The notes beneath the pieces were generated by a model that made no database searches, was not told where the DNA came from, and saw nothing but the letters and a program-made list of their open reading frames with translations. A stretch of 64,000 nt of DNA from Symbiodinium sp. CCMP2592 (Eukaryota; Sar; Dinophyceae; Suessiales; Symbiodiniaceae): the NCBI GenBank assembly GCA_905221615.1, contig CAJNDT010004558.1:310001-374000 (forward strand), given 5' to 3'. Position 1 is the first letter of the stretch; the number at the start of each line of letters is the position of its first letter. Shown piece by piece: positions 2,483-54,345 of the stretch. The position numbers were made by a program, and so were the translations under genes.

Positions 2483-2483
2483 T

Positions 2484-2515
2484 TAAGAAAGGGGGGGAGC
2501 CCCCCCCCCCCGCTA
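2484..2515 (+). promoter_or_regulatory. Polypurine-tract-like run and G/C hairpin just after pol
   Basis: Two bases after the pol stop is a purine run (AAGAAAGGGGGGGAG) followed by about 12 C. The purine run sits where the plus-strand priming polypurine tract of an LTR retrotransposon is expected. The G run and C run can also fold back on each other. No LTR could be defined downstream because minisatellite sequence begins within 150 bp. Confidence 0.45.
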
Positions 2516-7123: not shown

Positions 7124-7185
7124 TAAGAACAAGATAACAATAAGATTAGTTAGTAACAGTTCATTTGTTGATTATTCTTGTTTTT

Positions 7186-15300: not shown

Positions 15301-15660
15301 ATCAGGACCCCAGAGCTTGCTCCTTTATATTTGTGGTGTCAGGCACCCAAAGGGGGGTAGCTTTGCAGAACTTGAGAAATCGCTTTCTTTGAGAGGCCTT
15401 TGATAAAGAAATCAATGCTTTCTGGAGGCCTGCGGTTTGGCCGGCAGCAGAACTTTCCACAACCACCACATGCACAGCTTTCTTTATGATTGCTGATCCA
15501 AACCAGACCCACACGCCGGCGACCGGCCCTGCTAATGAGGATTTCAACGCTTGCTCCTTTATTTGTGGTGTACATGCACATTTCCTTTTGATTGCTGATC
15601 CAAACCAGAGCCACAGGCCGGCGACCGGCCCTGCTAATCAGGACCCCAGAGCTTGCTCCT
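12370..15660. repeat. Tandem array A, ~274-bp unit
   Basis: About twelve visible copies plus an N gap. Copies are marked by CTAATCAGGACCCC at about 12619, 12863, 13137, 13398, 13671, 13946, 14218, 14492, 14767, 15028, 15299 and 15637. The usual spacing is 273-275 bp, with some 259-bp units. Each copy contains GGCGACCGGCCCTGCTAATC, CTTTATTTGTGGTGTCAGGC and GCAGAACTTGAGAAATCGC. Both strands stay open over 70-120 codons per unit (for example a minus-strand VPDTTNKGASSGVLISRAGR), but divergence shows no codon-level constraint that I can see, so no gene is called. Confidence 0.95.
12650..12749. other. Assembly gap (100 N)
   Basis: Exactly 100 N inside array A, the conventional placeholder for a gap of unknown size. 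The true copy number of the array is therefore not known. Confidence 0.99.
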
Positions 15661-22600: not shown

Positions 22601-24590
22601 CTTATGATTGCTGATCCAAACCAGAGCCACACGACGGCGACCGGCCCTGCTAATCAGGGCCCCAAAGCTTGCTCTTTTATTTGTGGTGTCAGGCACCCAA
22701 AAAGGGGTAGCCTTGCAGAACTTGAGAAATCGCATTCTTTGAGAGGCCTTTGATAAAGAAATCCTTACTTCCTGGAGGCCTGCAGTTTCGCCGGCAGCAG
22801 AGCTTTCTTGATCACTGCTTCTTCCAAACCCACGACCACGACGTGCAGAGCTTTCCTTATGATTGATGATCCAAGCCAGAGCCACACGACGGCGACCGGC
22901 CCTGCTAATCAGGGCCCCAAAGCTTGCTCCTTTATTTGTGGTGTCAGGCACCCAAGAAGGGGTAGCCTTGCAGAACTTGAGAAATCGCATTCTTTGAGAG
23001 GCCTTTGATAAAGAAATCCTTACTTTTTGGAGGCTGTGGTTTGTCCCGCAGCAGCAGAGCTTCCTGATCACTGCTTCTTCCAAATCCACAACCACCACGT
23101 GCAGAGCTTTCCTTATGATTGCTGATCCAACCAGAGCCACACGACGGCGACCGGCCCTGCTAATCAGGGCCCCAAAGCTTGCTCCTTTATTTGTGGTGTC
23201 AGGCACCCAAAAAGGGGTAGCCTTGCAGAACTTGAGAAATCGCATTCTTTAAGAGGCCTTTGATAAAGAAATCCTTACTTTCTGGAGGCCTGCAGTTTCG
23301 CCGGCAGCAGAGCTTTCCTGATCACTGCTTCTTCCAAACCCACGACCACGACGTGCAGAGCTTTCCTTATGATTGCTGATCCAAGCCAGAGCCACACGAC
23401 GGCGACCGGCCCTGCTAATCAGGGCCCCAAAGCTTGCTCCTTTATTTGTGGTGTCAGGCACCCGAAGGGGTAGCCTTGCAGAACTTGAGAAATCGCATTC
23501 TTTGAGAGGCCTTTGATAAGAAATCGTTACTTTCTGGAGGCCTGCAGTTTCGCCGGCAGCAGAGCTTTCCTGATCACTGCTTCTTCCAAAGCCACAACCA
23601 CCACGTGCAGAGCTTTCCTTATGATTGCCATTTTTTAATTAGAGCCACACGACGGCGACCGGCCCTGCTAATCAGACCCCAAAGCTTGCTCCTTTATTTG
23701 TGGTGTCAGGCACCCAAAAAGGGGTAGCCTTGCAGAACTTGAGAAATCGCATTCTTTGAGAGGCCTTTGATAAAGAAATCCTTACTTTCTGGAGGCCTGC
23801 AGTTTCGCCGGCAGCAGAGCTTTCCTGATCACTGCTTCTTCCAAAGCCACAACCACCACGTGCAGAGCTTTCCTTATGATTGCTGATCCAAACCAGAGCC
23901 GGACGACGGCGACCGGCCCTGCTAATCAGGGCCCCAAAGCTTGCTCCTTTATTTGTGGTGTCAGGCACCCAAAAAGGGGTAGCCTTGCAGAACTTGAAAA
24001 TCGCATTCTTTCAGAGGCCTTTGATAAAGAAATCCTTACTTTCTGGAGGCCTGCAGTTTCGCCGGCACCAGAGCTTTCCTGATCACTGCTTCTTCCAAAG
24101 CCACAACCACCACGTGCAGAGCTTTCCTTATGATTGCTGATCCAAACCAGAGCCACACGACGGCGACCGGCCCTGCTAATCAGGGCCCCCAGAGCTTGCT
24201 CCTTTATTTGTGATGTCAGGCACCCGAAGGGGGGTAGCCTTGCAAAACTTGAAAATCGCATTCTTCAAGAGGTCTTTGGTAAAGAAATCCTTACTTTCTG
24301 GAGGCCTGCAGTTTCGCCGGCAGCAGAGCTTTCCTGATCACTGCTTCTTCCAAACCCACAAGCACCACAGGCAGAGCTTTCCTTATGATTGCTGATCCAA
24401 ACCAGAGCCGGACGCCGGCGACCGGCCCTGCTAATCAGGACCCCAAAGCTTGCTCCTTTATTTGTGGTGTCAGGCACCCCAAAAGGGGTAGCCTTGCAGA
24501 ACTTGAGAAATCGCATTCTTTAACAGGCCTTTGATAAAAGAATTCTTACTTTCTAGCAGAGCTTTCCTAATCACAACCACCACATGCAGA
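19640..24590. repeat. Tandem array B, ~255-bp unit related to array A
   Basis: Nineteen copies marked by CTGCTAATCAGG at about 19827, 20088, 20348, 20602, 20867, 21120, 21378, 21632, 21887, 22141, 22398, 22652, 22907, 23160, 23418, 23670, 23924, 24178 and 24431. The units share the array A blocks (GGCGACCGGCCCTGCTAATC, CTTTATTTGTGGTGTCAGGC, GAGAAATCGCATTCTTT) in the same orientation. A block at 21277-21477 recurs unchanged at protein level at 22808-23008, 1531 bp away (six units), which indicates a recent multi-unit duplication. One unit near 23628-23640 has a foreign ATTTTTTAATTAG patch. Confidence 0.95.
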
Positions 24591-27035: not shown

Positions 27036-27540
27036 GCATGAGGCAATATGTGCCTTTCTCATGTGCTTGAAGACATGAGCGCCAGATCTGAGCATGAGCC
27101 AAAATGAGCCTTTCTGAGGTGCTTGAGAACTTAAACACCCAACCCCAAACCCTAAACACCCAACCCCAAACCCAAAACCCTAAGCCCTGAACCCGAAACC
27201 CCGAACCCCAAACTCAAAACCCTAATTAAACCTCGAACCCTATTTTACCCTAAGTCTTTTGCGGGGTGACTTTGGGTGGTTTGGGTTGGGGATTTCTAGC
27301 TGTATGGGATTTCAAGAGGGGGTTCTGCCTAATTGTGTTTTGGGTTCTGAGCCTTGTTTAATTTGGGGCCTAAACCCTACACCCTACTAAGCTAGCCACC
27401 TAACCCTTAGAATTACCCTAATTGACAGCCTATACTTGAATGGGGTGACGTTAAAGGTGTTTGGGTTTAGGATAACTGGGGGGGAAGTAATTCTAAAAAT
27501 TATTGGGGACTGTAAACAACGATCTTCTCTAATCTGAGAA
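27036..27540. other. Intergenic: telomere-like tract, no gene seen
   Basis: 27125-27260 is CCCTAAAC/ACCCCAAA-rich telomere-like filler. The rest is G- and T-rich without a supported ORF. Confidence 0.6.
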
Positions 27541-28545
27541 TTGTTCAGGGTCCATAAGAAGGGTTGGGTGGTGTGGGGTCCTAACTAACCAGGGGCTGTA
27601 AGCTAAAAAATTAATTAGGGGGTTCTGGTTGCTGTGAGGGATTAGACCCTTTTTAATCAGGGGGTTATCTTTAAGAATTATTCAGGGTCCATAAGAAGGG
27701 TTGGGTCGTGTGGGGTCCTTACTAATCAGGGGCTGTAAGCTGAAAATTTAATTAGGGGGGTGCTGGTTGCTGTGAGGGATTAGACCCTTCTTAATCAGGG
27801 GGTTATTTTTAAGAATTATTCAGGGTCCATAAGAAGGGCTGGGGGCTGTGGGGTCCTAACTAATCAGGGGCTGTAAGCTAAAAAATTAGTTAGGGGGGTG
27901 CTGGTTGCTGTGAGGGATTAGATCCTTTTTAATCAGGGGGTTATCTTTAAGAGTTATTCAGGGTCCATAAGAAGGGTTGGGGGCTGTGGGGTCCTAACTA
28001 ATCAGGGGCTGTAAGCTAAAAAATTAATTAGGGGGGTGCTGGTTGCTGTGAGGGATTAGACCCTTTTTAATCAGGGGGTTATCTTTATGAATTATTCAGG
28101 GTCCATAAGAAGGGCTGGGGGCTGTGGGGTCCTAACTAATCAGGGGCTGTAAGCTGAAAAATTAATTAGGGGGGTGCTGGTTGCTGCGAGGGATTAGACC
28201 CTTTTTAATCAGGGGGTTATCTTTAAGAATTATTCAGGGTCCATAAGAAGGGTTGGGGGCTGTGGGGTCCTAACTAATCAGGGGCTGTAAGCTAAAAAAT
28301 TAATTAGGGGGGTGCTGGTTGCTGTGAGGGATTAGACCCTTTTTAATCAGGGGGTTATCTTTAAGAATTATTCAGGGTCCATAAGAAGGGTTGGGGGCTG
28401 TGGGGTCCTAACTAATCAGGGGCTGTAAGCTGAAAATTTAATTAGGGGGGTGCTGGTTGCTGTGAGGGATTAGACCCTTCTTAATCAGGGGGTTATCTTT
28501 AAGAATTATTCAGGGTCCATAAGAAGGGCTGGGGGCTGTGGGGTA
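27541..28545. repeat. 138-bp tandem array, eight copies
   Basis: CAGGGTCCATAAGAAGG occurs at 27546, 27683, 27821, 27959, 28097, 28235, 28373 and 28511: seven intervals, six of exactly 138 bp and one of 137. Each unit contains CTAACTAATCAGGGGCTG and TTTTAATCAGGGGGTTATC, i.e. branch-point/acceptor-like CTAATCAGG words. High identity suggests recent amplification. No coding frame. Confidence 0.97.
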
Positions 28546-28749
28546 TCCTGTCTAATTGGGGGGACATTTTATTTATTTCGGGTTCAACTGAAAGTCAATC
28601 AAATTGTTTCTGTGGATGGAACGAGCCTGTCTAATTGGGGGGGTTGTTTTTTCAATTTTTTATCCTTATTTGGGGTTCAATTAAAACACATACAAATCTG
28701 ACCCCAACACCCGGCCCGTGCCATTCTAATCAGGGGAATTTCCTAATCA
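28546..28749 (+). other. Leader of the 28.7-38.4 kb unit, with GCCTGTCTAATTGGGG motifs
   Basis: GCCTGTCTAATTGGGGGGG occurs at about 28625, and a TGTCTAATTGGGGGG variant at about 28549. The same motif recurs in the spacers after the copia element at 2.9-4.4 kb. The segment ends in TTCCTAATCAG|G, a good branch point plus 3' splice site placed at the start of the open frame. Confidence 0.5.
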
Positions 28750-29898
28750 GGTTCCTACATTACACCGGGCAAGTTCGACCGCTATGTGGAGCGCGCTGTG
28801 TTTCAGTACCATCCGGTACGGGGACATTTGCGCCCCGCTGCTATTGCGGACGTCCTTGCGCCGCCGTTTTTGCCTCCTCCTGAACCGCCTCTAGGCCAGT
28901 CTTATGTGCGCGCCCTGCCCGCCAAATGGCGAGCGGTGGTTGTCACACTGGCGCGTGCCATCCATGGGGGGTACCAGGGCTTTACATTGCACCAGGGATT
29001 TTGTTTCAACGGCCAATCCAAAAGTCAAGCCTCTCAATTTGGTTATGACCAATGGTCGTCGGTGTACGAAGATGTATGGCATGATGCGGCGGAACAGAAA
29101 AGGGAATATCAAGGATATGATGGAGCAATTGTGCCTCACGTGGTCAATTTCGCCGAAAACAAGCCCAAGGAGGGTCTGGTGATCCAATTCCTCGACCACG
29201 ATGGAAGGTTGGTCCATGCTTACAAGAACCCTTACAGCCGGTGGAAGTACCGTATCACTATCAAAGATGCTCCAAAGGCAGTGACGGTATGGACATTGAT
29301 AGGAGTCGATGAGGAGAACTGGTGGAATGAGTATGCTCCAGGCAAGGATTGCATCGCCCAGCATGCTCCCGATTCTCACTACGACCCTGGGCTGCAAGTA
29401 AATGTTCTGAGTATGGGGCGAGAAGTTGACGACGCCATGTGCGCCTACATCTTTGATGTGGTGGAAGCAAGGAAAGACAACCCTAACTCCGTAATCTTCA
29501 TTGGTGCAGGGGTGTTGGGCAAGAATTCGTGGCTGAGTCGGAAAATCGCTGACAACCCGAAAAGGGCCAAATTGCGGACAGACTACCCATGGGGGGAGGT
29601 CGTCCAAAGAATTGCGCGCAGAGCGGCATCATGGGGGTTCCAAATCATCATCGAAGTGCCTCCTCGAGTACCAGTCCAGGAAACCAAGCAGTACAAGGGA
29701 CTTCAGGAAGATGCCATGTGGAAGAGCATCAAGATCAAGGATGCACTCACGGGCAACGTTATACCTTTCGGGATCCTGTATCTCCCGGAACCGCCGTTGA
29801 GCTCGGCTACTGCAAGGATGAATGGGAGTACATTGCCGCAAACGTCGCGCTGCATCCTAAGTCGTCTGATGTGTGCTCGTCCAAACATTTGCACATGA
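28750..29898 (+). CDS. Multi-ORF element, ORF 1a (unknown; possible hydrolase-like fold)
   Basis: Open from an AG|G acceptor at 28749/28750 (YITPGKFDRYVERAVFQYHP...); no ATG is needed if it is an exon. A His/Trp-rich N-terminal half is followed by a compact alpha/beta-looking part (NSVIFIGAGVLGKNSWLSRK, then GFQIIIEVPPRVP) that resembles strand-loop-helix patterns of SGNH-type hydrolases, but the catalytic residues are not convincing. The last ~35 residues before 29898 look random, while the +2 frame from about 29790 continues sensibly (VELGYCKDEWEYIAANVALH), so the true protein changes frame in the overlap. Confidence 0.6.
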   Translation, partial: GSYITPGKFDRYVERAVFQYHPVRGHLRPAAIADVLAPPFLPPPEPPLGQSYVRALPAKWRAVVVTLARAIHGGYQGFTLHQGFCFNGQSKSQASQFGYDQWSSVYEDVWHDAAEQKREYQGYDGAIVPHVVNFAENKPKEGLVIQFLDHDGRLVHAYKNPYSRWKYRITIKDAPKAVTVWTLIGVDEENWWNEYAPGKDCIAQHAPDSHYDPGLQVNVLSMGREVDDAMCAYIFDVVEARKDNPNSVIFIGAGVLGKNSWLSRKIADNPKRAKLRTDYPWGEVVQRIARRAASWGFQIIIEVPPRVPVQETKQYKGLQEDAMWKSIKIKDALTGNVIPFGILYLPEPPLSSATARMNGSTLPQTSRCILSRLMCARPNICT

Positions 29899-30773
29899 CT
29901 GATTCGGACGCTAAGGATCGATCTGATAAATGCGAGTTGACTAGCCAAATCTCCAGAAGATTGCTTAAAGCCTTGAAATTTCAGGCAACTGGCGATGGGA
30001 GATTGGTAGCCATGCCGTCGAAGGCTGGTGGACGAAAGCCAGACCGCATGATTGTTGACCTCTGTGGCTTGGGTAACGGCTACGCCGTACCTAAGTCCAC
30101 TAAGGGTTGCTCTCGCATAACTTGCAAGGAGCTGATCAGCTCCAAAGCCGATGAGGACAACCTTATCGGTATGATGAAGGATGCGTGCCGGAACGACCTG
30201 CGCACACCTGTGCTATTCGTGGCATCGCTTTTGCGATCAGGTGCTGGTCCTGGAAGTAGTGAAGGGGCTTGCGTGGGGGGTGAGAAACGTTCTGGTGGGA
30301 AGTACAAGGTTTTCAGAAGTGTCTTGAAATCTCTCAAACGCCTGCTGAAGAAGTGTGCGGAATTTTCCGACGTCTATTTTTCGCTTGACATGCCTTCTTC
30401 ATGTTCATGTTGGTCTTGGCCAGAGTTGCATGCTCTTGTTTCAAGTGGCAAGGTGACGAAGGTTAAGGTTGATGAGCATGTTGGTGCTGATGGCGATGGT
30501 GGTGGACGCAGGATCATGTTCTCTAACATGCCTGAAGCGGATCGTTTGATGGTGAGACCGGATGATTGCTTGGACCATGATTCGAAGAGCAGTTTGTCGC
30601 AGCGCATTGATGTCTCATGGCGGTCAATTGCGAGGAATGTTCGCAGCCTTGTTCGAGCTCATGTCAGTGTCAGTCATGTTGCACATGAATCTGAGGACAT
30701 TGCATGGCAGCAACATCAGTGTGTAGACGCTGATGAAGGGGCTATTAGACAGCCCCAACTAAGGAACAACTAA
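29790..30773 (+). CDS. Multi-ORF element, ORF 1b with a methyltransferase-like module
   Basis: This frame is open from 29589, but only the part after about 29790 looks like a continuation of ORF 1a. The segment RMIVDLCGLGNGYAVP, then PVLFVASLLRSGAGPGS and VYFSLDMPSSCSCWSWPEL, follows the order of a Rossmann/DNA-methyltransferase-like module that I recall in dinoflagellate retroelement polyproteins (VEFC...; SIPCTGGSPWQ; IEWP..CSYW). The usual Pro-Cys motif is lost here, so it is probably not a methyltransferase in the classical sense. It ends at 30773; 112 bp of non-coding sequence, with a CCTCC-TAC-GGAGG hairpin, separates it from the next ORF. Confidence 0.55.
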   Translation, partial: TAVELGYCKDEWEYIAANVALHPKSSDVCSSKHLHMTDSDAKDRSDKCELTSQISRRLLKALKFQATGDGRLVAMPSKAGGRKPDRMIVDLCGLGNGYAVPKSTKGCSRITCKELISSKADEDNLIGMMKDACRNDLRTPVLFVASLLRSGAGPGSSEGACVGGEKRSGGKYKVFRSVLKSLKRLLKKCAEFSDVYFSLDMPSSCSCWSWPELHALVSSGKVTKVKVDEHVGADGDGGGRRIMFSNMPEADRLMVRPDDCLDHDSKSSLSQRIDVSWRSIARNVRSLVRAHVSVSHVAHESEDIAWQQHQCVDADEGAIRQPQLRNN

Positions 30774-30885
30774 GGTCTGACCAGACAGATCGGGGAAGGG
30801 TGCCTCTTACGGAGAACCCGGAACCGTGAAGTCGAGTAGGGTGTAGGGACTTCCCTCCTACGGAGGAAGGACCGAAACCCGAGCC

Positions 30886-33800
30886 ATGGCTGAAAGCTAC
30901 AATGCCTACGAGCTGGCCTTCGAAGGAGTGGACCACGAAGAAGTTTTCCCGTCTGGTGGGATGATGCGAACGTTTCTGAAGTTCCACAAGTTCCTGGAGA
31001 TGTATTCTGGGGATTCGTCGCAGAGCGTTTCGCTCCCGCCGAAGATTACGAAAGACAAAGTGGTCGACAATGATCTCATTCGCACATGGGCAGCGTTCAA
31101 AGCACCTCCGTTGGTCTTGCTGTTCACGTGTGCAAATCTGTCGCCAGGAGGAGATCTTTCCATTCGAGTCCGAGAAATCCTCAAAGCTTGCTTATTTGCT
31201 GCCCCTGAGGAGTACATGGACAAACCCTATGGGGAGATACTCGCCATGGTCATCAAGTTTGGTGGAGGTCTCAAACACATTGTTGCTGACTACGAGGGGA
31301 AGTTCAATGCCATCACCAGGTTTATGGTGGATGAGGAAGTGATCCGCGATGATGCAAAATTGGCTGTGGTTGAACTGGAACAAGAACGAAAGCAAGTTCG
31401 GTTCGACTTGAACACTGCAACAAGGAACATCGTCAGTGCGGACGGGTACTACAACCTCGCCGTTCTCATCAACTCCGTGGAGACGCCCTACCAGACTGTG
31501 ACAGACACGAGAATTCAACAATGGTATACGGTGAATCAGGACTACTACCACAAGTTGCCTATGTCGGGTAGAGCACCTGACCAATCAGACCTGTTGGCGG
31601 AGCCTACGTTATGTAGGGTGTGCAAGCTGATGTACATGTTCGCAAAACACACTGGGTATGGACTACGGACCTACAACCAAGAATGTGCAGCGAACAACGA
31701 TGGCGCTACGCCAATCAACGTTCATCAGCTGGCTTTGATGATGCGCACAATGCCTCAAGGCATGGGACATCCACTCGCCTTTGCGATGAACTCGCTCCAG
31801 GCGTTCAGTGTCTGTCTCCATGTGCTTCATTCCTACGTATCATGGGTTGATCCAGATACTGGACACCCGCATTACAGATGGTCCAACGATGTGCTCCCTG
31901 ATTCCGACTACACCACGTATTCTTTCCTCAAGCACCATGTGGATGCTGTATGTGCAGATCAAGACAGGAACGGTTTCCAATTGCCGGATGCGTTCCGTAG
32001 CTACACCTGGAATCAATGCGGAGTTGAATCTGGGTATGTGGTCGACTGCTCTACCAAACGCGCCACGTTGAGCATATGGGAAGCAGAATTCCAACAGATG
32101 GGGGCACCAAGTCCGCTTATGCAAGATGATGGCCTATTTCCGCCCAACCTTCAACGGCATCCTAGCTGGGTGTACTCAACGGGGAGGGTGGCGATGCCTA
32201 CGGCAAGCAACCTCGAACCGGAAGGAATCGTGCACCCTGAACATGGAAGAACGCCGGGACAACCGCAAGGATCCGCTACCGAGCCTCGAGCCACCCCTAG
32301 CCACGGACCAAAGAGGGCAAGGACGGACGAGGCAACGGCATCGGCGTCATCTTCTTCTGCGGCACCTCCTCCACAACCACCGACTTCGCAACCGGAAGAA
32401 GAACCATCGCAACCGACATGGGAGGAAGCTCCAATCCCCGCTGGCGCTCAGGAAAGTTGGTACCATTATGTCAACATCGATGAAAAGGGCTGTCGCTCGA
32501 GCTTGCTGGCGACGACCCGTGATCAAGACGAGTACCCACCTACCATTGATGAGACGCCAAAGTTCGTGGCCAACCACGACGTGGGGACCACACCGATTCA
32601 GCATTACGTCAGAAGACTGGTGACCTACTTGGCAAGGATTCGTTCCGTCTCTCAAAGTGACGACAAGGGTCTCAACCTGAAGGTCTACGTGAAGCTGAGC
32701 ACGAAGATGTGGTTACGGATGTATTCGCGGCTGTACCATGCATTGGCATTGGTGTCGTGCGTGCATCTTCCTTCTCCTCCAATGCTTACCTCGGCAGTGA
32801 TGATCGAGGCAGACAGCGATCTTGTCGACAACGATGAAATTCCGGCAGAAGCAAGGATCAATACCATGAACACGCTGAACGGATTTCGCAATAGTTTGGG
32901 TATGGGTGGCAAGCCTGATGCCGCGACTATGCGCTCTCAATGCACAATCCTCGTCCAAGACTTTGACATGGTCGCAAGGACCAGAGGGTCATCGCATACA
33001 GTGAGAGAAAATCTCGTCATGCATGGATGGAGTGAGATCTACATTGTGAGCCCGTCGATCACCGCAGGTGCCAACTACAACTTCCAAGTCACAAAGGGAT
33101 CGTTGGAATCTGTGAATGAGACATTGGATGGCTTGACTGAAGAGCAGCTTGCAACCGTCACGTTGCATTACCATCTGTCTCTCCAGGCGATCCTCATCGA
33201 GAACATATCATTTCCGATGAGTGAGGTCGGAGACGGAGCAGCGATTCGTGCTGACTTGCAGCGACAGCTCAAGGTCACGTACGTTGACCCCATCATTGCG
33301 GCAGGGAAGCGTACCACGCGCCCTCCAATTGTCAACATCAATCATGACTTACGGTTCGTAGGAGCAGCCAGCAATTACCTTCGACAGAAAGCTTCTATGT
33401 TCAACGGTTTCCACGCGCTGGGAATGTATATTGAACTGGAGTTGCGGGCCCGAGCATGCGTGGTGATTCATGGATCTTCGTTTTGGTCAAGAATGTACAG
33501 CCAGGCGAAACATGCGTCGTCAGGCGTGCATACACTGTCAGTCGAAAAGGTGCCACCACCGGACAATCGGGTCAGGTTCAAATTGGGCCTAGCTATCTAC
33601 GAGAAGCAGCTGTTCTGCGAGAAGATGGTATCCACGTGCTTTGTTGAGGCATCGAAAGTTCGCTCATGGGACGAAACAGTCCGAACCGACTCAGTCGCTC
33701 ACCCGTCGCTTGTCGAGATTTGGGAGGACAAGAGTGAAGTCAAGACGTCCACCAAGATTTCGCAGACATGGTTTACGGGGGAACAGCAGCAACAGATCAG

Positions 33801-36546
33801 GTCGGGTGCCCAGGGTGACACGGTCGCTGAATCGTCCACAGTCACCTGGCAGGATTTTGACATCGCCATGACCGTTCCCGAGGCCTACTACGACAACAGG
33901 CACTACTGGTTCAGGATCGACACCTATGCGACCCTGAACACTGGTTATGTCAAAGGGAGAACGTTCTATTGCCCTGGATGTGAAGCAATGAAGTTGGCTG
34001 AGTGCTACGCACAAGCCTTCTTCAAGCCGACCGGAAACGGGTATCCTGGACACTGCATTGGGTGCGCGCATACTTCAGCCTTGAAGATGCAGCATCAAAT
34101 CGGCTCCTTCAATGACTTGATCACGTCCCAGAAGTACACCTTGGCTTGCGCAAAGCACCTTTATGACCTGAGGCTTCAATTCGTGGATCCTCGCGTGGAC
34201 ATCAAGGAGTTCCTCAAAGTCTGTGCAGAGATGGTCTATGAAGACATCGGCAAGACGGTTTCTCACTACGGTGGTCTCCGAATCACAGCCAGTCAGGCCA
34301 TCGAGTACGCGGCATGGGGAAAGGCCAAACAGTTGGCGTGGGACAGAGGGTACGACTCCGAAGGCAAGACATGCTACATCTGCTACTACGATGCCGGGAA
34401 CTGCGCTTATGCTGGTTTCATGAGGATGCTTTTGACTCCAGAAGAGCGCCAAGAATGCTACAGAGGGTCAGTCTTGCCCAAGGAAGAGCTCCTGGGTGAC
34501 ACAGTGGAGCTGGCGCTCGGGCTTCTTACAATTGCAATGAGACACCCAAGTCATTTTATGAATTGGGGTGGCCTTGAGGGAGCAAATGCGTGCGCGAGAG
34601 GAATCGAAAGGTCATTCTTCCGCTACGCGTCGGCCGAAGCCATCGAGCTGATCACGGTTGACTCCCCGCGCAAAAGGACACCGCCCAAGAAGAATGAAGC
34701 AGTCGCTGAGATCGTCAACAACATGTCCGCTGACCTCGTGATTGATTTCACAGTGATCGTCGATGGTGATATCTACCCTGTAGAGATTGCGAGAACCGAC
34801 GAGACACAGGCCGCTGACAACGTCACGGACGATCCAGGGTTCTCAGTTGCTCCACCAATACCTGCACAGGATGTGGATGTGGATGCGCAACCCGAAGAAG
34901 AGCAAGGTGCAGAAGGCCCTGATCCCAGGCATGCAATTCGTGAAGGATTTGTCACACAGCTTCAGGACTATGTTGGCGTACTCGCTCAGGGCGAAATGTC
35001 AGTCGGAAGCGATCGCATCACGTTCTGTGTTGCTTGTGGCAGTGACCTACACACTCTGTCAAATTGCACAGAGAATGCTGCAACCCGGGATCTGGTACTT
35101 CGAGGCGTCCAGATCATCAAGGAAAGTCTTCTTCGATATCCACGTCGAGTACCTACACAAGAGGCTGAGCCAATGGACGTTGACACCACAGATCATGTGA
35201 GTGTTGCATCCTCGGACCGACGACCCAAGGCCAAAGCCCGACCGCGACGCGGAGGCGAAGCCGTTCGGGGTGATGTGGTCTTGATCCGTTATGAGAACAA
35301 ACACAATCTCTGCACGGATGTGGAGAACCGTCGGGGCCTAAATGATGCTTGTGGCGTACCACTGCAGGAATCGGGACCAGAGAATAGCCAGCGAGTGGTG
35401 GACATCATTGAGCAGCTTTCGGACCATCGCGACCGACGCCTACCTCAACGAGGAGACCGTCCTAGCTTTGCTTACGATGAGAACACTCATAGCTACACCA
35501 ATCCAGGCTATGAATCCATCGGCGGCGGAAGGCCAATCCGGTGCGGGATTCTCGACCTGATCCCAACCAAGGGTGCAAGCTTCATCAACAATCGGTGGGA
35601 CATCGTGAACGAAGTTGTCCTTCGCAACATCACCCGTCAGCGCAGGTTGAACGCGGATTGGGCGCTATCATGCATCCAGTCTGACTTGCGCCACAGAATC
35701 GCCAGGCGCCCAGGCTCGGAATGGCTTGACAACAGGTGCCAGGTGGCATTCAACAGTGTCATCAAATGTGATGAAGGAGGATGGGTGATGATCGAAGACT
35801 TGGTGAGGCATGAGCCACTATGGACCCATGAAAGCAGACGCATCACCGAAGGGGTCTCAAGGACCGATGATCAACAGAAGAAGAGAGTGTACAATGAAAG
35901 ACTTCAGCTATTGTTCCAGGGGAACATGATTGCAGCCACGAAACGCAACAAGGCCAAGATTCGGTTGCAGTTCCTGGGTGTGAGAGTGAAGGACCCCGGC
36001 ACGGAAGTTCTTGGATCAGCAGGTTCGAACAGGTTGGTATCAGTTCAGGACCAGATCACGGAGATCCAGAACAACGATCATTGCCGGCATGGCCAGAGGT
36101 ACCTGAACCTATGCAACGGCTGGGTGAAGCCATGGGCAGTTCGGGCTACGAGTGGTCACTCTGCGCATTCAGATCCCCAGAACAATTTGCTTCAGTTGGA
36201 CAAGAACAGGTTCGCAATATCTCCATCTATGACCCTCTTGCAACGTCTTGGAGGTGCGTTCCACGCTACGGCATGCCGCAACTTGGATTCCATTGTCACG
36301 CAAGGCATCATGCCTGGTTCGGAGGACCCCGACGGGGACTTCGACCATAGGCGCCAATTCCGAGGCAACCAAGGTGGCAGACTCCACAGCTATTGGGGGG
36401 TGTTTGCGCCGTTCGATCACCGGAACGCAACGACCAAGATGCGAGTACATGGACGAGACGCCAAGCACATGCCATTGGCGGTCTTCATGTCCCATCGCAA
36501 GATCTTGCACGAGAGGATGGACGTATCACAGACAGCGGCATCATGA
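30886..36546 (+). CDS. Multi-ORF element, ORF 2: 1,886-residue protein with zinc clusters and a Tpt1/KptA-like RNA 2'-phosphotransferase domain
   Basis: Starts at ATG 30886 in a good context (GAGCCATGG). Residues 1-420 are globular and unrecognised. About 440-520 is a Pro/Ser/Glu linker. Zinc-binding-looking clusters are YCPGCEAMKLAEC...HCIGC, CYICYYDAGNC and CVACGSDLHTLSNC. The C-terminus matches Tpt1/KptA in order: LRH (1601-1603), GGWVMIEDLV (about 1631), RATSGHS (1753-1759, the RxNQGHS motif) and FHATACRNLDSIVTQGIMPG (about 1792). Tpt1/KptA uses NAD+ to remove an internal RNA 2'-phosphate. The domain is cut off at MDVSQTAAS by the stop at 36546, while its last strands continue in the next frame. 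The domain call is strong; the element's identity is unknown. Confidence 0.8.
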   Translation: MAESYNAYELAFEGVDHEEVFPSGGMMRTFLKFHKFLEMYSGDSSQSVSLPPKITKDKVVDNDLIRTWAAFKAPPLVLLFTCANLSPGGDLSIRVREILKACLFAAPEEYMDKPYGEILAMVIKFGGGLKHIVADYEGKFNAITRFMVDEEVIRDDAKLAVVELEQERKQVRFDLNTATRNIVSADGYYNLAVLINSVETPYQTVTDTRIQQWYTVNQDYYHKLPMSGRAPDQSDLLAEPTLCRVCKLMYMFAKHTGYGLRTYNQECAANNDGATPINVHQLALMMRTMPQGMGHPLAFAMNSLQAFSVCLHVLHSYVSWVDPDTGHPHYRWSNDVLPDSDYTTYSFLKHHVDAVCADQDRNGFQLPDAFRSYTWNQCGVESGYVVDCSTKRATLSIWEAEFQQMGAPSPLMQDDGLFPPNLQRHPSWVYSTGRVAMPTASNLEPEGIVHPEHGRTPGQPQGSATEPRATPSHGPKRARTDEATASASSSSAAPPPQPPTSQPEEEPSQPTWEEAPIPAGAQESWYHYVNIDEKGCRSSLLATTRDQDEYPPTIDETPKFVANHDVGTTPIQHYVRRLVTYLARIRSVSQSDDKGLNLKVYVKLSTKMWLRMYSRLYHALALVSCVHLPSPPMLTSAVMIEADSDLVDNDEIPAEARINTMNTLNGFRNSLGMGGKPDAATMRSQCTILVQDFDMVARTRGSSHTVRENLVMHGWSEIYIVSPSITAGANYNFQVTKGSLESVNETLDGLTEEQLATVTLHYHLSLQAILIENISFPMSEVGDGAAIRADLQRQLKVTYVDPIIAAGKRTTRPPIVNINHDLRFVGAASNYLRQKASMFNGFHALGMYIELELRARACVVIHGSSFWSRMYSQAKHASSGVHTLSVEKVPPPDNRVRFKLGLAIYEKQLFCEKMVSTCFVEASKVRSWDETVRTDSVAHPSLVEIWEDKSEVKTSTKISQTWFTGEQQQQIRSGAQGDTVAESSTVTWQDFDIAMTVPEAYYDNRHYWFRIDTYATLNTGYVKGRTFYCPGCEAMKLAECYAQAFFKPTGNGYPGHCIGCAHTSALKMQHQIGSFNDLITSQKYTLACAKHLYDLRLQFVDPRVDIKEFLKVCAEMVYEDIGKTVSHYGGLRITASQAIEYAAWGKAKQLAWDRGYDSEGKTCYICYYDAGNCAYAGFMRMLLTPEERQECYRGSVLPKEELLGDTVELALGLLTIAMRHPSHFMNWGGLEGANACARGIERSFFRYASAEAIELITVDSPRKRTPPKKNEAVAEIVNNMSADLVIDFTVIVDGDIYPVEIARTDETQAADNVTDDPGFSVAPPIPAQDVDVDAQPEEEQGAEGPDPRHAIREGFVTQLQDYVGVLAQGEMSVGSDRITFCVACGSDLHTLSNCTENAATRDLVLRGVQIIKESLLRYPRRVPTQEAEPMDVDTTDHVSVASSDRRPKAKARPRRGGEAVRGDVVLIRYENKHNLCTDVENRRGLNDACGVPLQESGPENSQRVVDIIEQLSDHRDRRLPQRGDRPSFAYDENTHSYTNPGYESIGGGRPIRCGILDLIPTKGASFINNRWDIVNEVVLRNITRQRRLNADWALSCIQSDLRHRIARRPGSEWLDNRCQVAFNSVIKCDEGGWVMIEDLVRHEPLWTHESRRITEGVSRTDDQQKKRVYNERLQLLFQGNMIAATKRNKAKIRLQFLGVRVKDPGTEVLGSAGSNRLVSVQDQITEIQNNDHCRHGQRYLNLCNGWVKPWAVRATSGHSAHSDPQNNLLQLDKNRFAISPSMTLLQRLGGAFHATACRNLDSIVTQGIMPGSEDPDGDFDHRRQFRGNQGGRLHSYWGVFAPFDHRNATTKMRVHGRDAKHMPLAVFMSHRKILHERMDVSQTAAS

Positions 36547-38387
36547 TCGTTGGTCGAACGATACCTTTCCATTTCGTCAAGGAGGTATGGTTTTGCGTCC
36601 CTGATCCTCGAGATACACACTCTTTCGCTCTGGTGGAAAAGATCTACGATGAAAGGTTGGAGAAAGAGCTGGTGTTGGACTACAATGCATCACCGTTGCT
36701 TCCTGAGTTCGAGAGATACCGAACGCCAAGCAAGATCATGGAATTGCTTTGCGAGATGCCTCCTGGACCCCACGACACAAGCAAGGAGCAGATCATTCGT
36801 GACCTCACAACTGTCCTGGAGTCCCACAGGGAGAACACGGTTCGGCATCACTACATGGACAAAGGAATCAAGTTTGTCATCAAGAATTGGCGACCCGAAG
36901 ACCTACGCAGAGACGAGGATGGACGGAGAATGAGGGTATGCCCGGCATGCTACAACATCGTTCCAGCATGTTTCTCCCGATGCACGTCTTGCTGGTCACA
37001 GTTCATTTCGAGCGGATATTACCAAGGTTCTCCACAACGGGAGACTCCTACGGAGATCCCCAGTGACTTCATTGCTCAGACAATGGAAGCCGCAGCAGCC
37101 GCAGTGCCTGAGGCGCCCGAAGAGGAGCAGGAAGCCATGGAGGTAGAGACCGTTGCGGAACCTGAAGAAATCCCAGAACCATCTGTCGTCGCGGAAGACG
37201 ATCCAGAACAGGAACCTGATGAAGAAATGGACGTCGAGCCTGGAGAGGACTTTGATGACGCAGTTCCAGAAGCAATCGCACAGGAACGTCGTCCCGTCTT
37301 CATTACCGGCCAGTCTTTGAACATCGATCCTGAGCTACAACTTGCACGTACCGCCATGCAGCCATCCTACTATTCTGGAAAGCGAAATGCCCATTGCATT
37401 GACGCGAACATGACCGCTCTTTCGTACATGGCATACGTGGTATGCAGATCCATCTACAAGGCTTGGTCAGGATTCGCAAAGTGGGCGACTATGCCGTTGT
37501 TTCAGATGAGGGAAAGTTTCGCACTTGGCCAGCGCTATGATGTGCTTGGAAAGTGGGGATCTTTGGCGGCAGTGGATAGGGAAACGGGTGTGAGCAAGGA
37601 TGTGACTGATGAGGAGATCATTCGCTTTGCCAAGGAACCTGAGAACCTCAAACAGTATGATCCCAACGGGACTTACACCTTGAAGCGCTTCCGGACGAAC
37701 CAGATGCTTTCTTTACTTACACGGGGAGCCAACATGATGGGAATTGGCAGGGACAACTTCAACCCTACTACTTACTTGAAGAGCGACAGGGATGAAGATG
37801 TGAAGGCTATGCACTTTTGTTGCCTGAACGTCCTGTGCGAGGTGATTCCAATGGTGACGGGACATCAACAATTCTCAGTGCTACGACCAACGCCAACTGG
37901 ACCAGTGGACTTCTTGTACATCGACCCCGTCGGTATTCTGCTGACTCATTCTGATCAGTCAGTCCAGACCATCGGCTTGCTGGTGGACCACAGTGTGCAA
38001 ATGCCTGCGCATTTCATGGACAGATTGAACAGATCCAAGGCTGAGAGACAGCAAAACCCGACGACCAAGCGTACGGAAGCCCTACACCACATTTCGGCCG
38101 CTGACTATCTTCCTCCAGGTGGTACATCCATCCTGGACACGCCTGTCACTACGGAGGAACGTGAAAGCGCTTCTTCATCCAAGGGACCTTCAAAAGGGCG
38201 TGGAAGAACCGGAGGCGAGCAACATGGTGGCTGGAACACCAATTCCTACCACGACTACATCGCCGCCAAAGGCCGAAACAAAGGCAAAGACAAAGGAAAG
38301 CCGAGGAACCAGTATCCAGAGGAGAACCTCCGGCCCTGGGATCGCGATCCTACGTCAACGCGAAGATGGTGGCGAGACAACGCCTGA
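36393..38387 (+). CDS. Multi-ORF element, ORF 3: end of the Tpt1-like domain, zinc ribbon, acidic linker and unknown C-terminal domain
   Basis: The frame is open from 36393, but its first ~45 codons are a shadow of ORF 2. The sensible protein starts near 36523 (DGRITDSGIMIVGRTIPFHF then VKEVWF), equivalent to the 'DG..F..S.NGVWLT' end of Tpt1/KptA. Next come a four-Cys ribbon (VCPACYNIVPACFSRCTSCW), a Glu-rich linker (about 37100-37290), a folded region of ~250 residues that I do not recognise, and a Gly/Lys/Arg tail typical of RNA-binding proteins. ORFs 2 and 3 are probably one polypeptide made by frameshifting, or one gene broken by a 1-base indel. Confidence 0.7.
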   Translation: MGGVCAVRSPERNDQDASTWTRRQAHAIGGLHVPSQDLAREDGRITDSGIMIVGRTIPFHFVKEVWFCVPDPRDTHSFALVEKIYDERLEKELVLDYNASPLLPEFERYRTPSKIMELLCEMPPGPHDTSKEQIIRDLTTVLESHRENTVRHHYMDKGIKFVIKNWRPEDLRRDEDGRRMRVCPACYNIVPACFSRCTSCWSQFISSGYYQGSPQRETPTEIPSDFIAQTMEAAAAAVPEAPEEEQEAMEVETVAEPEEIPEPSVVAEDDPEQEPDEEMDVEPGEDFDDAVPEAIAQERRPVFITGQSLNIDPELQLARTAMQPSYYSGKRNAHCIDANMTALSYMAYVVCRSIYKAWSGFAKWATMPLFQMRESFALGQRYDVLGKWGSLAAVDRETGVSKDVTDEEIIRFAKEPENLKQYDPNGTYTLKRFRTNQMLSLLTRGANMMGIGRDNFNPTTYLKSDRDEDVKAMHFCCLNVLCEVIPMVTGHQQFSVLRPTPTGPVDFLYIDPVGILLTHSDQSVQTIGLLVDHSVQMPAHFMDRLNRSKAERQQNPTTKRTEALHHISAADYLPPGGTSILDTPVTTEERESASSSKGPSKGRGRTGGEQHGGWNTNSYHDYIAAKGRNKGKDKGKPRNQYPEENLRPWDRDPTSTRRWWRDNA

Positions 38388-38800
38388 TCTTCCTCGCCTA
38401 TCAGTTCGTGACCTCTGAGCTTCGCCCATGGAATGCCATCGCGAATGCTTCTTTCTTCGGTGACGCCTGATTCGTTTGTCATTTCAGGGGATCGTTACTG
38501 ACGTAGATGAGTGTCACAACGTTTCTAATTGGGATGCAAAGCTCTGATTTTCAATGTCAACGTTGCGGCGGAAATTTTCTGTTGTCCTATCGTGCCATCT
38601 TCCGGGTGAGCAGCGTCGGAGACGCAACTCATGGGGGGTGCGAACGGACTGCGATGCCTTGTCAAGTTCTAAGGTGTCACTATAAGAGCTGTGAGCAAGA
38701 CCGTGTAAAGTGCAAGAGAAGGGGGCACGCTACGCGTCCCTCGACTCTAGGGGGCATGCTACGCATCCCTCATCTTTACCTTTCTATGTGACCGCCAACG
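38388..38800. other. 3' flank of the element; 31-bp direct repeat
   Basis: No supported ORF. GGGGGCACGCTACGCGTCCCTC (about 38719) is repeated as GGGGGCATGCTACGCATCCCTC (about 38750). Possible 3'-UTR of the element. Confidence 0.45.
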
Positions 38801-38805
38801 CAACG

Positions 38806-38816
38806 TTTGGCTCAAG
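38806..38816 (+). other. Possible relict of the dinoflagellate spliced leader
   Basis: TTTGGCTCAAG matches the last 11 bases of the known 22-nt dinoflagellate spliced leader; the bases upstream match poorly. Such relicts mark re-integration of trans-spliced mRNAs. A chance match of this length in 64 kb on both strands is about 3 in 100, so it is only suggestive. Confidence 0.35.
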
Positions 38817-38879
38817 TCAATGCCCATAGCTAAGTGCTATATGTGTCTTCTATCCTGAGCAATCAGAGCTATCCCGTTG

Positions 38880-39670
38880 CACAGACGAACCGCCGCCGGC
38901 AGTGAGTGCAAAAGGAACGGCCGCCGGTTCTGCCTGCATAGGATCGCACGTGTGGAAGTAAGAGGGAGAGACAGGGTCCAGTCTGTGGAGAGTGCTAGCC
39001 AGCCACACCTACGTTCATTACAGCTCTGGTGGGGAGAGCAGCAACCAAGTCGAGATCAATCCCCCACGCACTTTGTGCTTTTGTACAGCAGAGATAGGTG
39101 GAGACCATGGTAGTTTTGGTTTTCCAACTGTTTGCGTTGTGCATGTGGCTGGTTAGAGTAAAACAGATCCAAGGCATTGGTTGGAAAACCGTTTATTATT
39201 GGTTTTCTTGCACGTGGGTACCGTCACCAGCAAAAACCATTAAAAAAGTATTGGAAATTTCAAGAATTTCCAGATTGCGCGTGATTGCGCCAAGAACTGG
39301 TTTTCTTGCGCGGAGAACTGGTTTTCTTGCGCAACCTTGCGCGAGATTGCGCGGGGGTTCCGGGATACTTTTTTGGTTTCGGGGCGGTTTGGGTGGTGTT
39401 TTGGTTTTCAACCATCGGTTCCAACTATTTCCAACGCATGTTTGCGTGTTCTCTTAAAACGACTGCTTTGGAGCTCACTATAGTGTTGGTGTTGGCAGCA
39501 ACTCATGCATGTGCAAGCTATCAAGTCATCAAGTTGTGCTTCCAACACAATCACAAGTCCAAGCAAGATGTGTTTGTTCAGCCGACAGCAGCTTCAGCAG
39601 TTCATGCTTCTAGCACATGAATTGGGCATGCGGACCTAATGAATTATTGCAGGAGTCTTCTATACATTAG
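38880..39670. other. Intergenic: repeated GGTTTTCTTGCGC words, no gene
   Basis: 39115-39430 contains repeated (A/T)TGGTTTTC and TTGCGC words (ACTGGTTTTCTTGCGC twice near 39300-39340), with GGTTTTC-CAAC at both edges. The short ORFs here look non-coding. Confidence 0.5.
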
Positions 39671-39671
39671 A

Positions 39672-42600
39672 TCACAGGTTCAGAGCTTGTTTGAACACCA
39701 TTGGCATGACCAAGCTCTTACAACCTCGAAGATAAGCGATCACCTCAGGCATACCGGCTTCCTCCCAGAGCTGCTGGTCTTGCTGAATCTTGGTCAGAAG
39801 ATTCATGACCGACTCAGACCCAACTTCCTGGGGCACTGACATATGTTTCATTGGCATGATTATCAGAATGAAGTACCAAAGCTTGGTTACATGTGACAAG
39901 ACACAGATCAAGCCAACTTGCAGCTCAGAGCTCCTTTGGTGAACGCAGCCCCGTGATATGTGAAGATAGCTTCGGCAACAAAGCACCGATACGGTACCCA
40001 AAGGCACGGGTGTACATCCTTGGCAAGACAGCACACATGCCACACAAGGCCAAGGATGTTGTTGACAAGCAACCAAGGTGTTCGTGCTTGCACATGTTGG
40101 TATTCAGTCTTTGAGGCCGTAGCTGGCTCTTCTTCAGCTTTTTCTGCACTCCAGTGTACCGAGTCTTTCCCGTGGAATCAACATAGCGTCGGACGAGGGA
40201 TTGGGCTGTGTCTCGCATTTCCTCAGGGCTGATAGCACATGCCACATGCAGCAACGGCGTGTCATGCATCATGGCAACATACAGCTGCAGAACATGTGCA
40301 TTGTTGCGAAAGCAAGCAGCCTTGGACACAGTATCAGAACCCAGCTCGCCGATCAATCTGCTGTTAGACCAGAGACATGACTTCTTCATACTCGGAGCAC
40401 CGAAAGCCCTCATGTTGATTGTTTGTCGGTAAACCTGAGTATCTCAGAGGGCAGGCATCCAAATAAATATTCCCCATACAAAGTAGCTCTCAACTCGCAA
40501 CCGGTATGTCTCAGCTCAGCTACCCATGCCACTTCTTGACAGAAATGCTCCCATTGTGGCAAGAAAGAAAACTTGGCACTTGCGGGCTGCTCAAGGATAA
40601 AGCACAGGTTCAAAGCCGTGGCCAGGTAGCACAGAAGAATGCACCTGCCCATACCCCATGAAGCGGCTGGCTTATGGAAGATACTAGCAAACTCTGCGTC
40701 GCTCAGGACGATTATATATGCTCCGACTCCGACGGAGAATGGCACCTGTGGGCCAATAAGTTGCCGGTCCGCACCCAAGGGAGCGAGGTGTCCCCTAAAG
40801 GACACACTATAGATCGCCCCGATTGAGAGGCACACATATCCGAAAAGGAAGAGCACACAGGAGCCAGCACCACGAGTCCTCCGGCTTGGAGACGAAGGGC
40901 TGCAACCAATGCTAACCTTCGATATTCTTGACTGCGAACTTGTTCATGTGGAGATCTATACATAGAATTATGTATACAATGCACAACACAACATTGTCAG
41001 TTGCTATCCGGGAGCGCCATGCCAGCTGGAGTCAAGAGGTCGTAATATGTCTGATCAGGTGCGTATTCGTAGTCCAGGGCAATCGTTTTGAACGACAGTT
41101 TCTTTAAACTCATGGTAAGATTTGCTTTGCCTGCAAAGAACTCTACAGCACGCCAATCCTCAGACAAGCAATCAAGCCGACAATTGACATGACATGCTAT
41201 ACAATCACAAGACTGTGAGCACACTGTAATTCAATCGGCAAGCACGGCTTAGGTGGATATCTTCGATGAAGTAGAGGAGCAAGCAGCAAACGACCACAGC
41301 CTTGTATTGCAAAGTACAGACCGATACAGTAACATCACAAGACATGCAGCCACAGCAATGCCAACACTTCTATATAGACAATCGGATAGATAGATAGCCG
41401 AATTGCCCGTGGAACCCCAGCTCTGTAGAGGTTGCATACAAGCACCCGCAGGTTCCATGCATTGCGTCGGCTGAACATGTTCGTAAGAGGGTCTGTGCAG
41501 ATCTTGCATCTAGCAGTCTAGCAGAAGCCAATGATGCAAATAGCTTCAAACCTATGACGGAAGTTGGCACGGCGGAATTATGTTCGAAACCCCTGAACCG
41601 TGTCACTGCTGCAATCAAGCACAACAAAAAGGCTGCAGTCAAGAGTTGTTCCAGTCCAACTTGCAGTGCATGCACATGCCAATCTACCCAAGCCAAGGTA
41701 ACAGGTAACTCCAGCTTCATGCACGAGGGCAACCATGCCGGCTTCACCGACACTTGGCTGCAGTCGTTTCCAGCCGCGGGGCATCGGCGCCGACACCTCG
41801 ATCAGCAATGTGTTTGCATCAGCAGCAACACTCAACAACAAACAAGCTTGTGGCATGATGCTTGCTTGCAAGTTGATTGCAACATATGCCTGCACAATAG
41901 GCTGCAATTATTTTTTCTTCCAGCGGGCTGGGATAACGATGATGTCCCAATCTTCAGGACCACGGCACCACACAGTAGGCAACATCCGACATGTGTGATG
42001 TTTAAACAGGCAGCAATCACATCAAAAATGGAGCGGACAGCTCCTGCCACACGTATGTCTACGATTCCGTTTGCAATTGCTTTGCAATTCCGGCTGTAAC
42101 TGCAAGCAGGCCCAGGAGGCAACCCCGAGGATCCATCGTCGCTGCTACTCAGACAAGATCAACATGTGGAAGGTTTTCCATAGCCCAACCTACCCCATGA
42201 TTTTTTTCTATACATCATATATATACCACCATACAGCACACTAGCCCACTCCGGAGAGTGGGAGACGGATCCAATCCTCCAGACCTGTTCCTAAGCAATC
42301 ACGAACCTGGAAAAAGGCTCTTGGCTTCTCAGGTATCTACACCAAAGGAGGCGTGGCTTTCAGCTCGGCTCGGTACTTGCGTCGCAGGTTCATCAAGACG
42401 GAGTTTGCTTCGTAATTCACTTGTGCCCATTTTACATTCTTCCCATTCTTCTCGAAGAACTGCACCTTTCTTAGATCAGCAGCATTTCGAGAGTTTCAAC
42501 GATAGTACATGAGTATAGACCATATCATGCAGATATTCAATCGAGCAACCATCTCATTGCAAAGCTCGATCAGCACCGTGAACGATGCCCACGTGTAGCA

Positions 42601-53697: not shown

Positions 53698-53713
<16 letters not shown>
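52922..53713 (+). CDS. Pro/Gln/Ala-rich exon, part 2 with PLNPRQ repeats
   Basis: Degenerate repeats of QPLNPRQEPLQQRAPPQQ (~20 residues). The end is a more ordered segment (FGFPMPPLANPLLPPP, VVQGQEVVEQMASLLKVTTA). All three frames are partly open because of CAG/GCA repetition. The DNA repeats GCAAGAGC. Intrinsically disordered; function unknown. Confidence 0.5.

Positions 53714-54345
<632 letters not shown>

Follow-up and report, generated by a model that had tools for sequence, protein, structure and literature searches.

A Tpt1/KptA-like domain in the second long frame of a 19.7-kb Ty1/copia long terminal repeat retrotransposon from a dinoflagellate

We analyzed a window of 64,000 nucleotides of the dinoflagellate Symbiodinium sp. 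CCMP2592 (contig CAJNDT010004558.1; C4557:310001-374000) and searched the organism's own assembly (1.10 Gb, 5383 contigs). We found that the long open reading frames (ORFs) ORF1 to ORF3 (28763-38387 of the window) are the 3' half of a Ty1/copia long terminal repeat (LTR) retrotransposon. The element is 19.7 kb long and has two long frames, the second of which carries a domain resembling the RNA 2'-phosphotransferase Tpt1/KptA that most likely acts with NAD+ on element RNA; we put the probability of this reading as a whole at about three in four.

The architecture is seen in two uninterrupted copies on C4941 and C125, which measure 19,692 and 19,694 bp from LTR end to LTR end and whose 432-bp LTRs differ at 1 base within each pair. 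Between the LTRs lie ORF A (3,637 codons, running from gag to ORF1) and ORF B (2,513 codons, comprising ORF2 and ORF3 with the KptA-like domain), one codon across each 10-kb cut being unread in these counts. ORF A contains a gag with CCCH fingers, a protease, a reverse transcriptase (RT), a ribonuclease H (RNase H) and the extra ORF1 part, and the junction between the linker that follows RNase H and ORF1 is continuous in both copies; ORF B contains zinc motifs and the Tpt1/KptA-like domain. When C4941 was compared with Pfam, zf-CCCH and RVT_2 scored over the cut-off, an aspartic protease and SH3_retrovirus scored under it, and the integrase family itself had no reported match. RVT_2 (PF07727, cut-off 31.6 bits) reached 34.0 bits in C4941 and 35.5 bits in the window (ORF 17-2482). 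An integrase presumably precedes the RT in the database relatives P0009, P0010 and P0014, given their similarity to the N-terminal part of P0014, which we named integrase from its motifs.

For the window copy, the 5' LTR is at C4557:303089-303520 and the 3' LTR, TGCGAACGG...CCCCCACGCA, is at 38639-39070 of the window (forward strand); the two differ at 2/432 bases. An LTR search restricted to the window found no pair because the 5' LTR precedes it. The 5-bp target-site duplication CTTTG, at 39071-39075 (forward strand), also precedes the 5' LTR. C4941 is flanked by GTTTC, C125 has both LTRs and flanks that share only AAAA, and for a fourth copy, C569, no 5' LTR was found within the stretches examined. 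In C4941 and C125 a single pair of LTRs surrounds both frames, and in the window copy the LTRs and the target duplication lie outside the two halves, so the KptA module is inside the element. RT and RNase H are in this same LTR-bounded element, which thus spreads by LTR retrotransposition, that is, by reverse transcription and integration. A preliminary description of this DNA had proposed a mobile unit at 28750..38387 that lacked an RT and whose mode of spread was open. The unit is indeed mobile, being multicopy and not single-copy in its own genome, but those positions are not element ends, and RT and RNase H precede it, immediately in C4941 and C125 and at a distance of 26 kb in the window.

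The long ORF blocks in one direction that the same description had pointed out are present within 28747-38387 as same-strand ORFs at 28747-29898, 29553-30773, 30847-36546 (1,899 codons) and 36351-38387; a simple base-composition model puts the chance of 1,899 open codons at one given place at ~10^-38. All parts of the window copy are on the forward strand. The end part of ORF A occupies 1-2482, in a gag-pol frame that runs on from the upstream stretch and is open from C4557:303570, before the window; it holds RT/RNase H (5-2182, by the RVT_2 match) and the conserved linker (2183-2464; 96% identity to P0005 and 92% to P0006). Downstream, the coding start is at 28763. ORF1a (28763-29779), the start of the accessory part, has 53% identity to P0005 292-621 and in C4941 and C125 is contiguous with the linker and in frame with pol. 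ORF1b (29739-30773) continues ORF1a in another frame after a frameshift near 29739-29763; P0005 614-811 matches frame 3 at 29739-30305, and C4941 and C125 have a single frame here. ORF2 (30886-36546, from its ATG) is the first part of the second polyprotein and has 75% identity to P0001 1-1865. ORF3 (36483-38387, frame 3) holds the end of the KptA-like domain, a CPAC/CTSC pair (36939-36992) and the C-terminal part of ORF B, with 73% identity to P0001 1862-2490. A frameshift near 36474-36486 falls inside the KptA-like domain; in relatives, and in 22/25 of the own-genome copies that were scored, the frame runs through unbroken. The window copy is dead, a relic, because of these two frameshifts and a 26.3-kb insertion.

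Among named proteins, the closest relatives come from Symbiodinium sp. KB8 (7 matches among 4546 candidates) and S. microadriaticum. The RNase H end of P0005 matches window 1604-2467 (93%), the RT-to-linker part of P0006 matches 5-2461 (82%), and later parts of both match 28765-36881. Within a set of eight proteins from 4312 candidates, query included, RNase H and the linker are found in 8/8 and RT also in 5/8 (P0006, P0009, P0010, P0013, P0014). ORF1a is matched in 7/8 (not P0014), and the match goes on into ORF2 in 4/8 (P0005, P0006, P0011, P0013) and into KptA in 2/8. These relatives are gene models, and introns could have joined their parts; this doubt is settled because C4941 and C125 hold both halves uninterrupted. 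In each of the seven relatives with both parts (P0005, P0006, P0009-P0013), the linker is 67-96% identical to the window and ORF1a much less so, at 27-53%, suggesting very different rates within one element. Median divergence between families is 0.67 in ORF1a as compared to 0.21 in pol. A Mantel test used 8/9 copies, with P0014 left out and P0010 included only in part. The ORF1b parts of P0011 and P0013 share conserved ALPCTGGSSW and FELP..C.YWKW motifs, which are absent from the window copy, in a domain without known family. We rejected a C5 DNA methyltransferase module in ORF1b, and with it the methyltransferase-like module of the preliminary description, as ORF1b lacks profile similarity to methyltransferases (no Pfam match at E≤10, 0.07% in hhalign to E. 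coli Dcm and no such PDB match).

The Tpt1/KptA-like domain spans 35653-36602 on the forward strand and was identified by Pfam, profile, motif and fold comparisons. The motif order that had been noticed earlier in ORF2 was borne out: DLRH (35683), KIRLQF (35956), RATSGHS (36142), FHAT (36259) and GRLHSY (36376) occur in the order of Tpt1/KptA. A profile search, which might have returned nothing, matched PF01885 (PTS_2-RNA) to ORF2 residues 1638-1823 (E=5e-5, 23.9 bits, under the cut-off of 26). The Arg-His-Arg-Arg tetrad is kept in 48/49, 44/49, 57/61 and 38/44 alignment rows and in 20/20 own-genome copies; for residues 3 and 4 we take the placing by motif with E. coli numbering to be the right one. 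It replaced a first placing after a paper on Tpt1 (PMC6333775), and the earlier positions are also conserved (41/45, 33/39). As described there, the Tpt1 tetrad contacts the RNA 3'-PO4 and 2'-PO4, and three of its four residues are in the RNA lobe (PMC6333775). An AlphaFold model built from 74 alignment rows (an earlier model had a predicted local distance difference test score of 54) predicts the RNA lobe and NAD+ lobe of the Tpt1/KptA fold. The zinc clusters that had been reported are present as motifs. Besides the CPAC/CTSC pair, there is a zinc-ribbon-like CPGC/CIGC pair at 33970-34065 (by motif only) and a CCHC zinc-knuckle pattern CX2CX4HX4C, CVACGSDLHTLSNC, at 35026-35067, both on the forward strand. 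The knuckle is present in 20/20 own-genome copies and in 0/2000 shuffles; it is kept in P0001, P0002, P0004 and P0005 and was not found in P0003, P0006 and P0007. It gave no Pfam zf-CCHC match, and a PDB search with the zinc region returned ZFAT (E=0.081). Its position near the KptA-like domain suggests RNA binding. Pfam scans of ORF2 and ORF3 pieces gave only APC_r (E=0.91), and PHROGs and NCBIfam searches led nowhere.

An own-genome ORF2 search gave 4038 first-look candidates, and the 25 that were scored are all at 99-100% identity. Frames of at least 2221 codons are open in 22/25 and of exactly 2513 codons in 18, whereas the window copy, C447 and C503 stop at 1897-1899; for one locus (L013, C2726:7776-13415) the open frame is listed as 3,654 codons instead of 2,513. 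Among 20 copies, ORF2 differs by 0.2-1.5%. Change is mostly synonymous: per site, the ratio of nonsynonymous to synonymous differences is 0.04-0.05 over the initial 5.3 kb of ORF A (from three copies), 0.10 over its end part, 0.12 over ORF1 and 0.07 over ORF B (C4941 vs C125). The ORF B ratio is biased down because copies were picked by ORF2 similarity; the ORF A ratio is not. In the KptA-like domain of 20 copies there are 4 nonsynonymous and 20 synonymous variants (ratios of 0.04 and 0.07). LTR pairs differ at only 1-2 bases, and the family has therefore spread recently; it is under constraint.

As for function, the simplest reading would be that the domain performs Tpt1 chemistry on RNA to which its own polyprotein binds. 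Most likely, phosphates on that RNA are removed or ADP-ribosylated at the expense of NAD+. Candidate targets are 2'-phosphates that repair or processing leaves on the element's RNA, or those of a cleaved tRNA used as primer, and clearing them would allow reverse transcription to proceed. Copia elements can prime from half-tRNAs, and 2'-phosphates can block RT. The sequence GGTTATCAGCCG follows the 5' LTR in 3/3 copies, and GGCTGATAACC, complementary to what follows the 5' LTR, presumably resembles a tRNA anticodon arm. At three loci (L029, L035, L038), GGTTATCAGCCGTACGCGG stands directly 3' of the 5' LTR. Tentatively, this could be a recently active giant copia lineage with its own RNA end-healing enzyme, in which the zinc knuckle of the second polyprotein would bind element RNA and the KptA-like domain would unblock RT by clearing 2'-phosphates, either where genomic RNA had been nicked and sealed again or at the cut end of a half-tRNA primer; no earlier retroelement may then have had NAD+-dependent RNA repair. 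For RNA viruses, KptA within polyproteins has been interpreted as RNA processing (PMC9503650).

Several observations weigh against this main reading. The PF01885 score, above the cut-off in P0040 (27.4 bits), is below it in the window and in C4941 (25.2 bits); P0001 and P0003, scanned whole, gave no match at E≤1, and 4/10 relatives gave none. PDB sequence searches were not significant (8tfz, E=0.23 and 1.2), and with A2 an unrelated RNase P subunit came first. A single E. coli KptA alone gives only 45%, and CC0527, matching over the NAD lobe only, reaches a score similar to those of the archaeal enzymes. Foldseek found no match below 1e-3, and the model has template-modeling (TM) scores of 0.22-0.27 and a predicted TM score of 0.56. 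The 20 copies of the selection test were picked by ORF2 similarity, and the counts for the KptA-like domain are small (4 vs 20). Finally, a genome-wide search for GGCTGATAACC with a T-arm pattern at tRNA spacing gave 0 matches, a negative unvalidated by a control pattern.

The main functional rival is that the KptA-like domain of the same retrotransposon is an ADP-ribosyltransferase directed at host protein, DNA or RNA as counter-defence and not at the repair of element RNA. In its favor, ORF1a diverges far more than pol between families, as expected of conflict proteins, other ADP-ribosyltransferase folds come after Tpt1 in the structure lists, and viral ADP-ribosyltransferases are often conflict proteins (PMC9503650). 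Against it, the tetrad that contacts RNA phosphates in Tpt1 (PMC6333775) is kept and the nearby knuckle suggests RNA binding. We regard ADP-ribosylation of host targets as possible, at appreciably lower odds than action on element RNA. A domain that is no longer catalytic, and whose role in the second polyprotein is to bind RNA or to provide structure, would explain the sub-threshold Pfam scores, the HAT in place of HGT, the long insertions in the RNA lobe and the few relatives without tetrad residues; it is unlikely in view of the tetrad's conservation in 38/44 to 48/49 rows and in every own-genome copy compared.

The 26.3-kb insertion (2469-28760), largely tandem arrays, separates RT/RNase H (5-2464) from ORF1-ORF3 in the window copy. 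It is bounded by a left inverted repeat at 2467-2490 (forward strand, TA included; the pattern occurs only twice in the window, with a chance expectation of 0.00) and a right inverted repeat at 28739-28762 (reverse strand) that matches the left at 22/24 bases. The same site is empty in two other copies. Removing 2469-28762 with one TA kept gives ...RAAILD-TPGKFDRYVERAV..., of the same length as RAAIPD-AAAKFDRYVERAV in P0005, and leaves an element of 19,688 bp. Inverted repeats, a TA duplication and the empty site are as in a terminal-inverted-repeat DNA transposon or an introner; the 5 ORFs scanned inside the insertion contain no transposase, with one Exonuc_V_gamma match under the cut-off (E=0.046). 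Genome-wide, the 24-base repeat is matched 12,922 times, as against 0 times for the reversed control, and thus appears to be a very abundant family like miniature inverted-repeat transposable elements or introners; several listed opposite repeat pairs span ~110 bp, and four examined repeat loci hold single repeats. Probably a short inverted-repeat element of a very common kind inserted at this site first, and the 26 kb of arrays accumulated within it afterwards. Were the insertion spliced out like an introner, the window copy could still give a joined mRNA. Dinoflagellate introners have been described as carrying inverted and direct repeats (PMC7789003), and the genome-wide abundance of the repeat would fit, but GT-AG removal at the repeat ends breaks the frame, which is kept only by exact removal, and the two frameshifts persist, making splicing improbable. 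Because GT-AG joining breaks the frame, we also rejected the splice acceptor earlier suspected at 28750, a site that is the right inverted-repeat end. The tandem array reported before the ORFs is confirmed as a 138-bp array at 27537-28544. Array units in the insertion are 11, 70, 171/342, 274, 255 and 138 bp; the arrays at 12750-15458 (274 bp) and 19679-24554 (255 bp) have related units and share the motif CTAATCAGG, which recurs within the 138-bp array and next to the right inverted repeat. That ORF1-ORF3 are a separate virus or host gene cluster merely near a copia pol, as the 26-kb gap between the halves and the KptA of a few RNA-virus polyproteins (PMC9503650) might suggest, is already contradicted for the present-day element by the LTRs around both frames. 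Scanning IMG/VR with each of two alignments brought up 41 and 40 pattern stretches and no relative among them. An old viral origin of the KptA module is possible.

Elsewhere in the window, a 459-residue ORF with internal repeats (42554-43933, reverse strand) has no Pfam match at E≤0.1, and a long AGT array lies at 53706-54329, with similar TAG/AGT arrays at 7185, 9280 and 10227. Rfam gave 0 matches and a tRNA scan of the window 0.

We found no retrotransposon with a Tpt1/KptA-like domain in the open-licence literature, which omits most subscription papers, and the three open-licence papers that name both KptA and retrotransposon do not link them in the passages concerned. If the enzyme is active, it would follow that phosphate scars on RNA hold back reverse transcription in vivo to the point where a mobile element carries a remedy. 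Being young and multicopy, the family lends itself to direct study of its RNA, primer and enzyme. The annotation of such proteins, unnamed products in databases, is corrected, and dinoflagellate Tpt1-like gene counts may partly be retrotransposon counts.

The element is like Ty1/copia in its RVT_2 RT, CCCH gag, aspartic-protease-like stretch, 432-bp LTRs, 5-bp target duplication and, in relatives, integrase before RT; unlike usual Ty1/copia, it is 19.7 kb long, and its RNase H is followed by ~3,100 additional codons. No domain gain in Copia-type elements was seen in a survey that covered 121 angiosperm genomes (PMC9289625). The domain is like Tpt1/KptA (PF01885) in motif order, tetrad and predicted fold, and differs in a ~50-residue insertion between KIRLQF and RATSGHS, in HAT for HGT, in its place inside a polyprotein and in mostly sub-cut-off Pfam scores. 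Mobile genomes that carry KptA are known among viruses, within the polyproteins of Beihai picorna-like virus and Botrylloides leachii nidovirus (PMC9503650) and free in sawfly baculoviruses (PMC3230848). Unlike our element, these viruses do not use LTR retrotransposition, and the word 'retrotransposon' occurs 0 times in the main text of PMC9503650. Extra enzyme ORFs in large LTR elements are described for bdelloid Vesta/Juno (GDSL, DEDDy; PMC5408684) and for a 25-kb orchid Gypsy with an AlkB m6A demethylase, which acts on RNA (PMC9289625), but the enzymes and hosts are different and the orchid element is a Gypsy. In the same host group, Symbiodinium LINE and DIRS elements are described as carrying DNA methyltransferases, and Copia there as being without them (PMC5890265); like the element studied here they have captured a nucleic-acid enzyme, although enzyme and element class differ.

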